From: Aphelocoma coerulescens
Taxonomy: Eukaryota; Chordata; Aves; Passeriformes; Corvidae
Assembly (NCBI RefSeq): GCF_041296385.1
Contig: NW_027184083.1
Coordinates: 2,914,001 to 2,978,000 of the forward strand
DNA: 64,000 nt
Direction: 5' to 3'
Position numbers and translations under genes: made by a program. Of this stretch, positions 50,810-55,279 are shown piece after piece. The number at the start of each line of letters is the position of its first letter. The first letter of the stretch is position 1. The notes beneath the pieces are model-generated. The model was not told the DNA's origin. It ran no database searches and saw only the letters and a program-made list of their open reading frames with translations.

Positions 50810-50815
50810 CTTTTA

Positions 50816-51103
50816 TGTCGGGGTCTCCTCCCCCTGCCATGTAGTCCTGAGAGAGGGTCCCTGAGGGGACAGAGACAGGGTTTCCCTAGCCCCTGGGCAG
50901 TCTCGTTCCCGATTGGTTGGTGTTCCCCTGAGCGGGCAAGGACCCTTGGTCCCGCATTGTAAGAGTTCCTCGGCAGAGCTCCGGCCATGCGGCTGGAGAA
51001 ATAAACATCTCTGAAACATCTAGCAAGAATTTGTCCATACATATTTCTTTTCCACGGGACTCCTTGTTTGGTACACGCATGTTACAGAATCCCCGCTGTA
51101 ACA
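50816..51103 (+). repeat. 5' LTR of CSD element B
   Basis: It starts TGTCGGGGTC and ends GCTGTAACA, with AAATAAACATC near 50999. It is 288 bp. Confidence 0.9.
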
Positions 51104-51186
51104 AATGGTGGAGAGTTGCTGGCAGAATGATCCCTGATCCCTAAGTAATTGATTTGTGTGAGTAAACCCTAGAAACTTTGGATTCC

Positions 51187-51463
51187 TGTTGGGGTCCCTC
51201 CCCCGCGCCCTGTAGCCCTGAGGGAGGCACGGGGTTTCCCTGCCCCTGGTCAGCCTCGTTCCCCATGGGTTGGTTTGTGTTCCCCTGCGCGGGCAAAGCA
51301 GCTCGGGTCCCGACTGTAAGAGTCCCTCAGCAGAGCCTGGCCATGCGGCTGGGGAAATAAACATCTCTGAAACATCTAGCAAGAATCCGCCCGTATATAT
51401 TTGTTTCTTTTCCACGGGACTCCTGGTTTGATATATGCGTGTTGCAGTATCCCCACTGTAACA
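51187..51463 (+). repeat. 5' LTR of CSD element A
   Basis: TGTTGGGG...ACTGTAACA, with AAATAAACATC near 51354. It is followed two bases later by TGGTGGAAGATTGCGAGC, the probable primer site. I could not match that to a tRNA. Element B has TGGTGGAGAGTTGCTGGC at the same place. Confidence 0.92.
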
Positions 51464-51574
51464 TATGGTGGAAGATTGCGAGCAGAACGATCCCCGCGAC
51501 TGATTTGTGTGAGTAAACCCTGGAAACTTTGGATTCCTCTTCTTGGTTTTGTTTTGCTATTGCATATCTGGACT

Positions 51575-52903
51575 ATGGAAGAATCGTGGGAAATGGGGCT
51601 CTCTGAGCCACAGAAAAAAATGTATCTAGAAGTAAAAGGGATCCTTGAACAACAAAACAAAAAAGTATTGGAACCGGGAGATCTTGAACACTTTTTTATC
51701 TGGCTTTTCAAAGAGTTCCCCTATATTTCTCGAGACTTACTTTTTGATATCAAACCTCCTGGATATTCTCAGGAGTGTTTCTGGAACGAGATCTGTGATA
51801 AGCTAAGGGATGGACTAGCGATAGAAGCTCTCCGTGGATCCTTTATAATCAGTGACGCTCTTCAGGAGCATCTGTATGATCCCATTACCCCTAAAGCAGA
51901 AGATCATACTTCTCCCGTGGCCGAGACCGCGTGGCGGCCACCCCAGGAGTGTATGACTGCAGCCGTGCCAGCGGAGGTGCCTGCGCTGGATGTGCCCGGC
52001 CCCCTCGGGAGCGCGCGCCTTACTGCGGACCCCATCCCTGTCTCGGGGTCCCCGGCCATGCGGCCGCGAGTGAGGGAGCGACGCCGCAGGCGCCATGGGT
52101 GCCGTGGGCCACGAGCAGCCAGGAACCGGAGGTCAGCGTGGAAGCCCGCTCTGAGCATACGGCTCGGAGAGCCCTGTGGAGGGAGAAGCGGCGGTTTCCA
52201 CAGCGACACGAGAAGCCGCGCAGTGCAGCGCCGAGCCGGAACGGGGCCGCTCTCGAAGCAGCGTGGAGTTTGCGGAGCGGAGCCGTGCAGAGCCCAGACA
52301 CGCGCCGGAGCAGCGCCGTGCAGAGAGCGCAGAGCGGCCGCGGCGCGGGGGCCTGACCGAGACGTCAGAGTCGGCGAGGCGGCGGCCACGCGGGACCGGC
52401 ACCCACGACAGACACGCAAGCACGTGATAGGAGACGTTCTAGCAACGAAAGTCACAGGAACTGTGAAATGGTACAATGTAAAAAACAACTATGGATTTAT
52501 AACACGAGATGATACAGGGGAAGATTTATTCATCCATAGAACTGCCGTTAAAAGGAATAACCCTAAAAATTACCTGCAAAGTGTAGGAGATGGGGAAGTT
52601 GTTCAATTTGATATAGTGCAAGGAAAGAAGGGTTTACAAGCAGCGAATGTTACTGGGCCTGGAGGTATTCCCGTCAAAGGCAGCCGTTATGCACAAAATT
52701 ATAAACACTATCCATTCCAGCAATTTCCCTACCCACAGCCTAATTTCCCCTTTTACCCTATACCCAATATGAACCCTTTCCTAAGTTTACCCTATCCCCA
52801 GTTTATTCCCAATCCGTTTTTTCATCCATGGTTTCCCTCACAAAACCCTGCCTTTGCCAATTGTTTCCCCAAAAATTCCTCTCTGATGCCGATGGGGGGA
52901 TGA
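51575..52903 (+). CDS. Gag matrix-like / Y-box cold-shock domain fusion protein
   Basis: 442 codons, fully open. The start at 51575 is chosen because element B has the same context and start. Residues 9-80 resemble the Gag matrix of the class II ERVs here (LSEPQ, FIWLFKEFP at 41-49, FW at 69-70, DKL), so this part likely drives membrane targeting or self-association. Residues 110-285 are a GC-rich, Arg/Pro/Ala-rich linker. Residues 293-373 are a cold-shock domain of Y-box (YBX) type, with RNP1-like YGFI, RNP2-like DLFIHRTAV and the SVGDGE and VTGPGGIPVKGS blocks. This is a nucleic-acid-binding fold. Residues 374-442 form a Phe/Pro/Tyr-rich tail. There is no zinc knuckle, capsid or enzyme. Met7-Gly8 could give an alternative start with N-terminal Gly. 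The function as an RNA-packaging Gag substitute is inference. Confidence 0.9.
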   Translation: MEESWEMGLSEPQKKMYLEVKGILEQQNKKVLEPGDLEHFFIWLFKEFPYISRDLLFDIKPPGYSQECFWNEICDKLRDGLAIEALRGSFIISDALQEHLYDPITPKAEDHTSPVAETAWRPPQECMTAAVPAEVPALDVPGPLGSARLTADPIPVSGSPAMRPRVRERRRRRHGCRGPRAARNRRSAWKPALSIRLGEPCGGRSGGFHSDTRSRAVQRRAGTGPLSKQRGVCGAEPCRAQTRAGAAPCRERRAAAARGPDRDVRVGEAAATRDRHPRQTRKHVIGDVLATKVTGTVKWYNVKNNYGFITRDDTGEDLFIHRTAVKRNNPKNYLQSVGDGEVVQFDIVQGKKGLQAANVTGPGGIPVKGSRYAQNYKHYPFQQFPYPQPNFPFYPIPNMNPFLSLPYPQFIPNPFFHPWFPSQNPAFANCFPKNSSLMPMGG

Positions 52904-53120
52904 AAAGGGGGAGGGAAGAGATTGAACCCTCTCCTGCCTCAGTTTCCCCACAGGCATGTCCAGAGAGTTCTGTCTCCCTTCTGTCAGCCCTAAGATGTTC
53001 CGCAGAATCTGTTTGGACATTTAAAGACTCAGGAGGGTGGCTTGTTTTGTTTTGAAACTGTTCTTGTTATGTTTATCCAATTGTCTTCATTCTCCTTTTA
53101 TTAAAATAAAACGGGTGAGA

Positions 53121-53396
53121 TGTTGGGTCCCTCCCCCGCGCCCTGTAGCCCTGAGGGAGGCACGGGGTTTCCCTGCCCCTGGTCAGCCTCGTTCCCCATG
53201 GGTTGGTTTGTGTTCCCCTGCGCGGGCAAAGCAGCTCGGGTCCCGACTGTAAGAGTCCCTCAGCAGAGCCTGGCCATGCGGCTGGGGAAATAAACATCTC
53301 TGAAACATCTAGCAAGAATCCGCCCGTATATATTTGTTTCTTTTCCACGGGACTCCTGGTTTGATATATGTGTGTTGCAGTATCCCCACTGTAACA
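53121..53396 (+). repeat. 3' LTR of CSD element A
   Basis: 276 bp, identical to the 5' copy by eye except for one missing G near the start and one C-to-T change near 53370. The preceding AAAATAAAACGGGTGAGA is the likely polypurine tract. Confidence 0.92.
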
Positions 53397-53439
53397 GATT
53401 CCTCTTCTTGTTTTTGTTTTGCTATTCTATATCTAAACT

Positions 53440-54763
53440 ATGGAGGAACTGTGGGAAGACTCTTGGCTCTCAGAGCCGCATATGGACATTTATCTTAAAC
53501 TTGAAAAGATTCTTGAACAACGATTTGTAAATTTTAGCTTAATTCAAGCTCAAAAAGAACTGAAACATTTCCTTTCATGGTTGTTTAAGAACTTTTTCTA
53601 TGTTTCTTGGGATTTAATTCTTACCAAAGACTTTTGGAACACCGTTTGGACACAGTTAATTTTTGAGTCAAAATATATGCCAATGGAAGAGTATTTTCGT
53701 GAATATTATTGAATTACCGAGACTGTTGAGCAATGTCAGCTGTGTCCTGGCGAAGAGAAGCCTGCCTCAGGGACCATGAGACCCAGACCAATAGGACCAA
53801 GCCTGCTCCGAGCAGCAGCAAGGCAGTTCACGCGCACAGGCGGAGCCACGTGAGCCACAGTATCGGCGGAGAAGCAAGGTGCGGCGGGAGCAGCGCAACC
53901 CGGCGGTGCCTGCCTGGCACCATGCAGCGTGTGGTGGAGTGAGCCCAGTCAACACCTGACCGAGAGGGGCGGCGCGCGGGCGGAGGCTGGCAGCGGTGGC
54001 AGTGGAGTGGAGCCGCGCCCAGCCGAAACGTGCTGAAGCGGGGCGCGAGGGCGTCATCCCTCGGGGGCCCAGCCGAGACGTGGGTGCAGCGCCTGGCATC
54101 GTCAACGAAGCTGCGACCAGAGGAGGTGACGCACGGAGAACTGAGTGGCGCAGCCCGGCCAGGCCTGCGCGGCCCCGAGTGCGACCCCGGGAAGAGCGCG
54201 CAGGCACGAGCAGCTCCAGCAATTCCAACATGGGAGCGAGCGAAAGAGAAAGCAAGAACGCAGTGAGACAGAAAACAGCAGCCACTCGGAAAAAGGAAAA
54301 TATCATAGCTAAGATTTTAGGAATAGTAAAATGGTATAATGTTAAACAAAATTATGGTTTTATAACAAGATGTGACAACCAGCAAGACATATTCGTGCAT
54401 AGAACTGCCATTAAAAAGAATAACCCTGAAAAATGCATCCCAAGCTTGGGAGATGGAGAGGTGGTGGAATTCAAAATCATACAAGGTAGAAAAGAGTTAC
54501 AAGCATCGCAGGTCACTGGGCCTGATGGTGTTCCTGTAAAAGGCAGTATATATGCAAAAAATCGTAGTCATGTTAGACAATATCTCCATTGTAGTCCCCC
54601 CCTACAGTCTCCCTTTCCTAATCCCACCTTTCCCTTTTACCCTATATCCTATTACCCCCAGTGTATTCCCAATCCGTTTTTTCATCCATGGTTTCCCTCA
54701 CAAAACCATACCTTTGCCAATTGTTTCCCCAAAAATCCCTTTCCAATGCCGAGTGGGGGATGA
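53440..54763 (+). pseudogene. CSD element B fusion gene, broken
   Basis: Orthologous in layout to 51575-52903. 53440-53712 encodes the matrix-like part (LSEPH, FLSWLFKNF at 45-53, FW at 65-66), then a stop at 53710-53712. After a GC-rich stretch of about 280 bases, an open frame in another phase (53996-54763, 255 codons) carries the cold-shock domain (its residues about 107-187) and the aromatic tail. By eye 53 of 81 domain positions match element A, with most differences conservative. RNP motifs (YGFI, DIFVHRTAI) are kept. The tail ends almost the same way (IPNPFFHPWFPSQN, FANCFPKN). The break lies in the linker, and the 3' frame might still be expressed if initiated internally. Confidence 0.85.
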
Positions 54764-54981
54764 AAAGGGGGAGAAAAGAAATTAAACCCTCTCCTGCCTC
54801 AGTTTCATCACAAAGCATGCTCAGAGAGTTCTGTCTCCCTTCTGTCAGCCTTAAGATGCTCCACAGAATCTGTTTGGACATTTAAAGACTCAGGAGGGTG
54901 GCTTGTTTTCTTTTGAAACTGCCCTTGTTGTTTTCAATGTTAAGTTTTACATCTCTTTTTGTTAAAAATAAACCGGTGAAA

Positions 54982-55273
54982 TGTCGGGGTCTCCTCCCCC
55001 TGCCATGTAGTCCTGAGAGAGGGTCCCTGAGGGGACAGAGACAGGGTTTCCTAGCCCCTGGGCAGTCTCGTTCCCGATTGGTTGGTTTGTGTTTCCTTGT
55101 GCGGGCAAGGATCCTCGGTCCCACATTGTAAGAGTTCCTCGGCAGAGCTCCGGCCATGCGGCTGGAGAAATAAAGATCTCTCTGAAACACCTATCAAGAA
55201 TCTGTCCATATGTATTTCTTTTCCACAGGACTCCTGGTTTGATACATCGTGTTGCAGTATCTGCACTGTAACT
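54982..55273 (+). repeat. 3' LTR of CSD element B
   Basis: 292 bp, TGTCGGGGTC...GCACTGTAACT. The last base is T where A is expected. The target duplication CTTTTA follows at 55274-55279. Confidence 0.88.
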
Positions 55274-55279
55274 CTTTTA

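Follow-up and report, generated by a model that had tools for sequence, protein, structure and literature searches.

The analyzed window, 64,000 nucleotides of the Florida scrub-jay Aphelocoma coerulescens genome (contig NW_027184083.1, positions 2,914,001 to 2,978,000; G000:C37:2914001-2978000), contains at 50810-55279 a long terminal repeat (LTR) element, here called A, with a younger LTR element, B, nested in its leader. B encodes one protein in which a Gag matrix-like domain (MA) is followed by an Arg-rich linker, a Y-box-type cold-shock domain (CSD) and an aromatic tail. Judged by their sequences, the copies of this family are recently active LTR retrotransposons of corvids. We see an even chance that the family is a class II-type corvid LTR element with an MA-CSD protein, its CSD likely derived from a host YBX mRNA, that spreads via the particles of helper class II retroviruses. 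A more specific reading is held tentatively, at somewhat less than an even chance: the Y-box domain replaced the capsid, the nucleocapsid and all enzymes, the matrix-CSD protein ferries its own RNA into particles that other retroviruses make, an abundant young corvid element was the result, and one of its insertions lies at the locus separating hooded from carrion crows.

Structure of the nested elements

The ends of the interval, 50810 and 55279, coincide exactly with the outer edges of the 6-bp target-site duplication of A, CTTTTA (50810-50815 and 55274-55279). The A LTRs, TGT...ACA at 50816-51103 and its partner at 54982-55273, lie on the forward strand, like all other oriented features of both elements. 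Within the A leader, a second duplication, GATTCC (51181-51186 and 53397-53402), encloses B, whose LTRs occupy 51187-51463 and 53121-53396. B is 2210 bp long, and A without B is about 2.24 kb by its coordinates. An earlier note, made from the letters of the window, had proposed two related LTR elements of about 2.2 kb; both are present, but a second full element beside the first is ruled out, since B is nested inside A. The B LTRs differ by two mismatches and one gap across 279 aligned bases (272 of 276 identical in a second alignment), which makes B young. A is older, with 263 identical positions among 285 aligned bases.

The open frame of B (51575-52903) codes for 442 amino acids plus a stop. 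It consists of the MA-like domain (51575-51925; profile match to MA of class II endogenous retroviruses, ERVs), a GC-rich, Arg-rich linker (51926-52432; net charge +24, and from 18 to 26 across 37 open copies of the family), the CSD (52433-52696; PF00313, expectation value E 1.4e-22; YBX2 7f3i, E 2.5e-42) and a Pro/aromatic-rich C-terminal tail (52697-52900) that is common to A and the crow proteins. A 3' untranslated stretch (52904-53120), 86.9% identical to its counterpart in A, precedes the 3' LTR. In the window copy of A, the MA frame (53440-53712) is ended by a stop at 53710, and the CSD sits in a different frame (53960-54763) that covers the linker end, the CSD (54299-54562; PF00313, E 4.3e-20) and the tail (54563-54760). 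Hence the MA-linker-CSD-tail coding expected for both elements holds as a single frame in B but is split over two frames in this copy of A; A-type relatives with an open frame occur elsewhere.

Outside the coding region, the primer-binding position begins alike in both elements, with TGGTGG starting two bases past the LTR, and diverges afterwards: it reads TGGTGGAAGATTGCGAGC in B (51466-51483) and TGGTGGAGAG... in A (51106-51123). Between A and B, identity is 85-87% over the tail, 3' untranslated stretch and LTRs and 60-72% over MA and CSD. The high identity of the former regions may stem from sequence exchange between the two subfamilies or from constrained cis-acting signals.

In agreement with the earlier note, no family of capsid, zinc knuckle, protease, reverse transcriptase, integrase or env was matched in the element frames scanned (four, then six; not every frame). 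With no pol family in these frames, the element can apparently only be a non-autonomous derivative. A search of 50700-55400 against Rfam and a search of IMG/VR viral contigs each yielded zero matches.

Copies in the scrub-jay genome

The genome search suggested in the earlier note, with the CSD and tail as the query, recovered a multi-copy LTR family in the scrub-jay. First-look candidates numbered 7,263 for the B query and 3,449 for the A query. For each query 150 were scored; those of B all had E < 1e-89, and many of those of A have frames of 433-441 amino acids. These candidates are unconfirmed members, and the two sets may overlap. For B, 30 + 20 loci were fetched as the best CSD+tail matches, one being B itself, and 49 of the 50 could be judged over MA and CSD (L025 begins inside the element); a 51st locus, L031, adjoins an assembly gap and was excluded. 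The frame is uninterrupted between MA start and tail in 37 of these 49 copies, or at 34 of 46 distinct sites after removal of duplicates of single insertions. The linker length is a multiple of three in 41 of the 49, with five different lengths from 507 to 582 bases, and is not in the other eight. Among 12 A-type loci fetched (one being A itself), three were scored by script as open from MA start to tail, and one further locus has a 439-residue frame that was overlooked by the script's motif. A frame of 2120 residues at one locus was rejected as an assembly gap read as open frame.

The copies have the hallmarks of separate retroviral insertions. An exact 6-bp duplication flanks 43 of the 44 copies whose two LTRs align over at least 250 bases, and the 44 represent 41 distinct insertion sites. 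When flanks from different copies were paired as a control, a 6-bp match was found in 1 of 428 cases, so the presence of two related LTR elements is beyond chance. The only copy without an exact duplication, L026, is part of a tandem pair. The LTRs are 273-314 bp long (43 copies). Five of the 44 pairs are free of substitutions, three of them also of gaps, and the median divergence of 1.0% corresponds to about 0.3 million years at a crow rate of 0.0158 borrowed from PMC7341801, a value that the family as a whole may exceed, since the sampled copies were the best-scoring ones.

These counts bear on two simpler explanations. According to one, the arrangement is a processed YBX pseudogene that landed by chance between LTRs at one locus. 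The CSD is indeed intronless, as such a pseudogene would be, but the same arrangement recurs at dozens of distinct sites, in two subfamilies and in a crow protein. This refutes the explanation, and we assign it a next to negligible probability; the earlier note, which named a single-locus pseudogene or a lack of other LTR-flanked copies as the outcomes that would overturn it, withstands both, given the 41 sites and the crow proteins. According to the other, a domesticated host gene family joining Gag and YBX spread by duplication. Uncharacterized proteins are annotated in both crow and scrub-jay, and some copies do share flanks. Each of the remaining copies, however, has its own LTR pair and insertion site (41 distinct sites among 44 copies); the LTRs are young, 43 of the 44 copies have the 6-bp duplication, and domestication is very improbable.

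The copies with shared flanks, L002/L003/L005 and L036/L037, are segmental or assembly duplicates and not separate insertions. Ten A-type CSD matches spaced by about 1910 bp at G000:C4:114686278-114703923 likely form a tandem array of the element, as expected from unequal exchange between LTRs. Smaller arrays are found on contig C35 at about 8,431,000-8,436,000 (spacing 1934 bp) and on contig C384, where L025 and L026 are spaced by 1938 bp.

Origin of the cold-shock domain

The best structural-sequence relatives of the CSD and tail are YBX2 and YBX1 (E 2.5e-42 to 6.4e-35), compared with 4.2e-13 for the best bacterial Csp and 2.5e-9 for the best LIN28. The assignment of the domain to the YBX pattern, and not to LIN28 or bacterial Csp, was thus correct. 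Identity to annotated Y-box proteins is about 67-72% for B-type and 53-61% for A-type domains. In alignment, Trp13, Phe22, Phe33 and His35 of the domain are retained in both A and B; we take them to match the residues W65, F74, F85 and H87 with which human YB-1 stacks on RNA. Behind the CSD, the element also shares the YBX-type extension with vertebrate YBX1/2/3. Unlike the latter, it lacks the Ala/Pro N-terminus and the basic/acidic C-terminal repeats in this alignment, and has MA, the Arg-rich linker and the aromatic tail instead.

In a tree of 25 CSDs, nine element sequences fall on one side of a branch with support 98/95 (two element rows are long-branched, and one YBX3 row was entered by hand), and a single capture is therefore likely. 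The position of the element group among YBX1/2/3 points to no single donor gene. Querying the genome with a generic YBX2 CSD produced 1,652 candidates. Of these, 150 were scored; each matches at 72-74% identity with no interruption across all 88 residues, and many coincide with places found by the B query. Vertebrate YBX genes carry introns across the CSD region. As the element CSD is intronless, uninterrupted and in frame behind MA in the 37 open copies, it was likely captured from a spliced host mRNA.

Divergent YBX-like proteins of turtles (P0052, P0105 and P0120) share the motifs GFITR and GGIPV with element B. The tree places them with host YBX, apart from the element CSDs.

Matrix domain and class II affinity

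Eight element matrices were combined into a profile and compared with 198 pieces of window open reading frames, tiled at 105 residues each. After the two element pieces, the best match was the frame 16805-17233 on the reverse strand (probability 95.7, E 9e-9), and the comparison repeated with this matrix alone gave 95.9 and E 5.7e-9; the highest probability among 120 shuffled sequences was 1.4. This frame is the nearest Gag relative of the element MA found in the window. Behind it on the same strand lie frames for Gag_p24, RVP, RVT_1, RNase_H and rve, which together form a class II ERV (10984-18054, reverse strand) with 566-bp LTRs. The comparison supports homology of the element MA to this matrix and its placement in the class II Gag type, and it gives substance to the matrix-like N-terminus that the earlier note had described. 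A presumed Gag start at 3494-4615 (reverse strand), in which no Pfam family was named, matches the element MA at a probability of 74.7.

Other searches with MA returned nothing of use. PDB sequences gave only an ORC1 chain (E 0.042), and profiles against PDB gave only unrelated chains (E 0.37 or worse). Pfam gave no family past the cut-off (PELP1_HEAT, E 0.019; Vezatin, E 0.11 and 0.14, in the crow proteins). A protein search with MA only recovered a single protein, the jay's own. Two AlphaFold models of MA have a predicted local distance difference test (pLDDT) of 58.9 and 72.2, the latter being all-helical.

With class II retroviruses the family shares the 6-bp target-site duplication and TG...CA-type LTRs (43 of 44 copies). 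Of Gag, the matrix was found, and capsid and nucleocapsid were not; reverse transcriptase and integrase were likewise not found in the frames scanned. The element resembles the ERV at 10984-18054 in its homologous matrix domain but differs from it in that the ERV owns capsid, protease, reverse transcriptase, RNase H and integrase frames, has a Lys-type primer site (identified by eye) and shows no extended LTR similarity to the element. Myristoylation of Gag requires Gly-2. The element MA begins with MEE- and not MG-, and so is without this residue.

Selection and the mode of spread

The coding regions of the B copies differ in the ratio of nonsynonymous to synonymous polymorphism (pN/pS). The ratio is 0.46 for MA (46 copies, 28 distinct) and, for the linker, 1.02 at a length of 507 bases (22 copies, 20 distinct) and 0.68 at 549 bases (15 copies, 14 distinct). 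Values of 0.23 for the CSD (49 copies, 24 distinct) and 0.47 for the tail (49 copies, 20 distinct) are biased downwards because both regions were the search query, which MA and linker were not. The window pair A and B was not chosen by the query; its CSDs have nonsynonymous divergence (dN) 0.253 and synonymous divergence (dS) 1.155, a ratio of 0.22, and three other A copies give 0.23-0.26 against B. MA and CSD thus show signs of selection that these comparisons support, and a protein kept by selection most likely benefits its own coding RNA or the close kin of that RNA.

A scheme of spread via helper particles can be built on this. A host YBX domain would have been captured from spliced mRNA and fused behind a Gag matrix. 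The CSD and the basic linker would bind the element RNA, and MA together with the basic linker would tie the complex to the Gag of a helper, another ERV that would supply the enzymes in trans. The element RNA would then be carried by helper particles, within which recombination between A and B RNAs could occur. Parts of this scheme have reported precedents: host YB-1 binds the packaging signal of human immunodeficiency virus 1 (HIV-1) (PMC11768693), foreign RNA-binding motifs can restore packaging by Rous sarcoma virus Gag, albeit in viruses that are non-infectious (PMC7232437), and ERVK elements that depend on a helper occur in cattle and mouse (PMC10924933).

Several observations weigh against this scheme, beginning with the query bias in the CSD and tail ratios. 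In the window A/B pair the MA ratio is 0.30 with dS saturated, and the linker gives 0.37-0.51 against three A copies in an uncertain alignment, so it is no clean neutral control in the A-to-B comparison. Twelve of the 49 copies are broken. Five of them (L012, L013, L017, L023 and L039) carry the same 5-bp deletion, which breaks the frame within a short, GC-rich part of the linker, sit at different insertion sites, and include one copy with identical LTRs; hence a copy does not strictly need to encode the fused protein itself. Either the broken copies were moved by complementation from intact ones, or a short repeat has lost the same 5 bp more than once. As for MA, fold searches with both models found no convincing structural neighbor, and the presumed Gag matrix at 32559-32855 did not match it (probability 0.2). 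The primer site of the element does not resemble the Lys-type site of the ERV that carries the related matrix, and no helper with a similar LTR was found within the 64-kb window.

The chief rival to helper-particle packaging by the MA-CSD protein assigns the CSD a host-directed role. The fusion would act on host or element mRNA, through stability, translation or escape from silencing in germ cells, and packaging would depend on the RNA's own signals. Y-box proteins bind RNA broadly, and YB-1 is described as stabilizing HIV-1 RNA (PMC11768693). The CSD is the most constrained part of the protein, subject to the query bias, and the movement of frame-broken copies fits a diffusible product that affects the fate of RNA. 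A pure host-RNA factor, however, would have no need of a Gag MA kept under constraint (pN/pS 0.46), and we regard this explanation as rather unlikely.

Less probable still is a passive passenger, moved by its LTRs and RNA signals only, with the frame a relic of a once useful gene. Cattle ERVs without functional genes do thrive as helper-dependent elements (PMC10924933), and the shared deletion in five copies is what a dispensable frame would permit. On the other hand, the CSD ratio stays at 0.22 over a dS of about 1.1, MA lies outside the query and still has a ratio of 0.46, the frame is open in 37 of 49 copies, and an open fusion is also found among crow proteins.

Crow relatives and the NDP insertion

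The family extends to crows. The predicted Corvus moneduloides protein P0121 (440 amino acids, standing for 24 sequences) is an intact A-type MA-linker-CSD-tail fusion. A second predicted protein of this species, P0129, combines an A-type MA (89% identity to A vs. 34% to B) with a B-type CSD and tail (79% to B vs. 55% to A). It looks like a natural A/B recombinant, as co-packaging of two RNAs would give. The crow fusion proteins are annotated only as uncharacterized.

A 2.25-kb ERVK insertion of the crow repeat corCorLTRK1b, with a 296-bp LTR, is located upstream of NDP and associated with hooded-crow plumage, and was typed with two primers internal to the insertion (PMC7341801). Both primers can be placed in the scrub-jay family. 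P_L_R_2 matches all 62 sampled copies with one or two substitutions, and in B its site is within the tail at 52823 (19 of 20 bases). P_R_F_1 is exact in 5 of the 62, namely in 4 of 12 A-type and 1 of 50 B-type copies; 12 copies have one substitution, 2 have two, 39 have three or four, and 4 have more than four. As controls, none of 14 other window stretches, and none of 200 shuffles of each primer in element B, came within four substitutions.

The sizes agree as well. In the scrub-jay genome, three places match the flanking primer A_F_3 with up to 3 mismatches, and only one of them, G000:C1:6677322, also holds the other flanking primers. There A_F_3 and A_R_3 are 190 bp apart, which is the empty site as identified by primers only; the published product of the empty crow allele is 197 bp (PMC7341801). 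The published amplicons of 659 and 564 bp (sum 1223) minus the 906-931 bp contributed by the element, as computed from nine B-type copies with 290-300-bp LTRs, leave a flank of 292-317 bp, and the scrub-jay empty site predicts 296-303 bp. Since primers, amplicon sizes and element size all fit, the NDP insertion very likely belongs to the Y-box element family, an assignment made by primers and sizes and not by identity to the repeat consensus. By its leader primer, it is more likely of the A type than of the B type.

With its length, 296-bp LTR, both insertion primers and amplicon sizes alike, corCorLTRK1b is most likely the name under which the family has already been catalogued (PMC7341801). 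No coding capacity of this repeat is mentioned in passages of that paper. The earlier note's statement that no such element had been described is right in that the literature searched, mostly below full-text level, yielded no retroelement bearing a CSD, but the DNA family itself has most likely been recorded. If so, the NDP plumage insertion would be a member of a defined protein-coding family and not an anonymous 2.25-kb repeat.

Comparison with other defective retroelements

Acute transforming retroviruses fuse spliced host sequence behind the Gag start, replacing the rest. The element resembles them in having host sequence behind the Gag start; they are single and short-lived and carry a growth gene, whereas the element is a germline family, its two subfamilies are under constraint, and it carries an RNA-binding domain. 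The literature searched gave no germline family in which a Gag matrix is kept joined, under constraint, to an RNA-binding domain of host type. Known non-autonomous ERVK elements include ETn with its helper MusD, IAP I-delta-1, the bovine ERVK[2-1-LTR] D-type and RecKoRV (PMC10924933). Like these, the element is bounded by LTRs and lacks enzymes, and it is plausibly mobilized in trans as they are. In contrast to the bovine D-type, reported to be without functional genes, it encodes a conserved protein that contains an RNA-binding domain of host type, and it differs from the described ERVK helper pairs, which are central-segment swaps (PMC10924933). The success of non-autonomous ERVs is commonly put down to their RNA alone, whereas in this family a protein that combines Gag matrix with an RNA-binding domain of host type has been maintained under constraint. 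Such a protein makes the packaging of retroviral parasites directly testable.

Chromosomal location

The Florida scrub-jay assembly is reported to include about 21 Mb of W in one scaffold and a further 20.5 Mb in five pieces (PMC11631490). Contig C34, at 20.98 Mb, probably represents W, and C35-C38, which total 20.48 Mb, are probably pieces of it; the window, being on C37, is therefore likely W-linked. Of the 150 scored places of the B query, 44 are on C34-C38, which make up 3.1% of the 1.33-Gb assembly, an enrichment possibly inflated by the origin of the query itself from C37. The window is an ERV-dense region, and it also contains a direct triplicate of a 1.35-kb stretch, 94-98% identical, at 22841-24192, 34533-35858 and 43197-44542.

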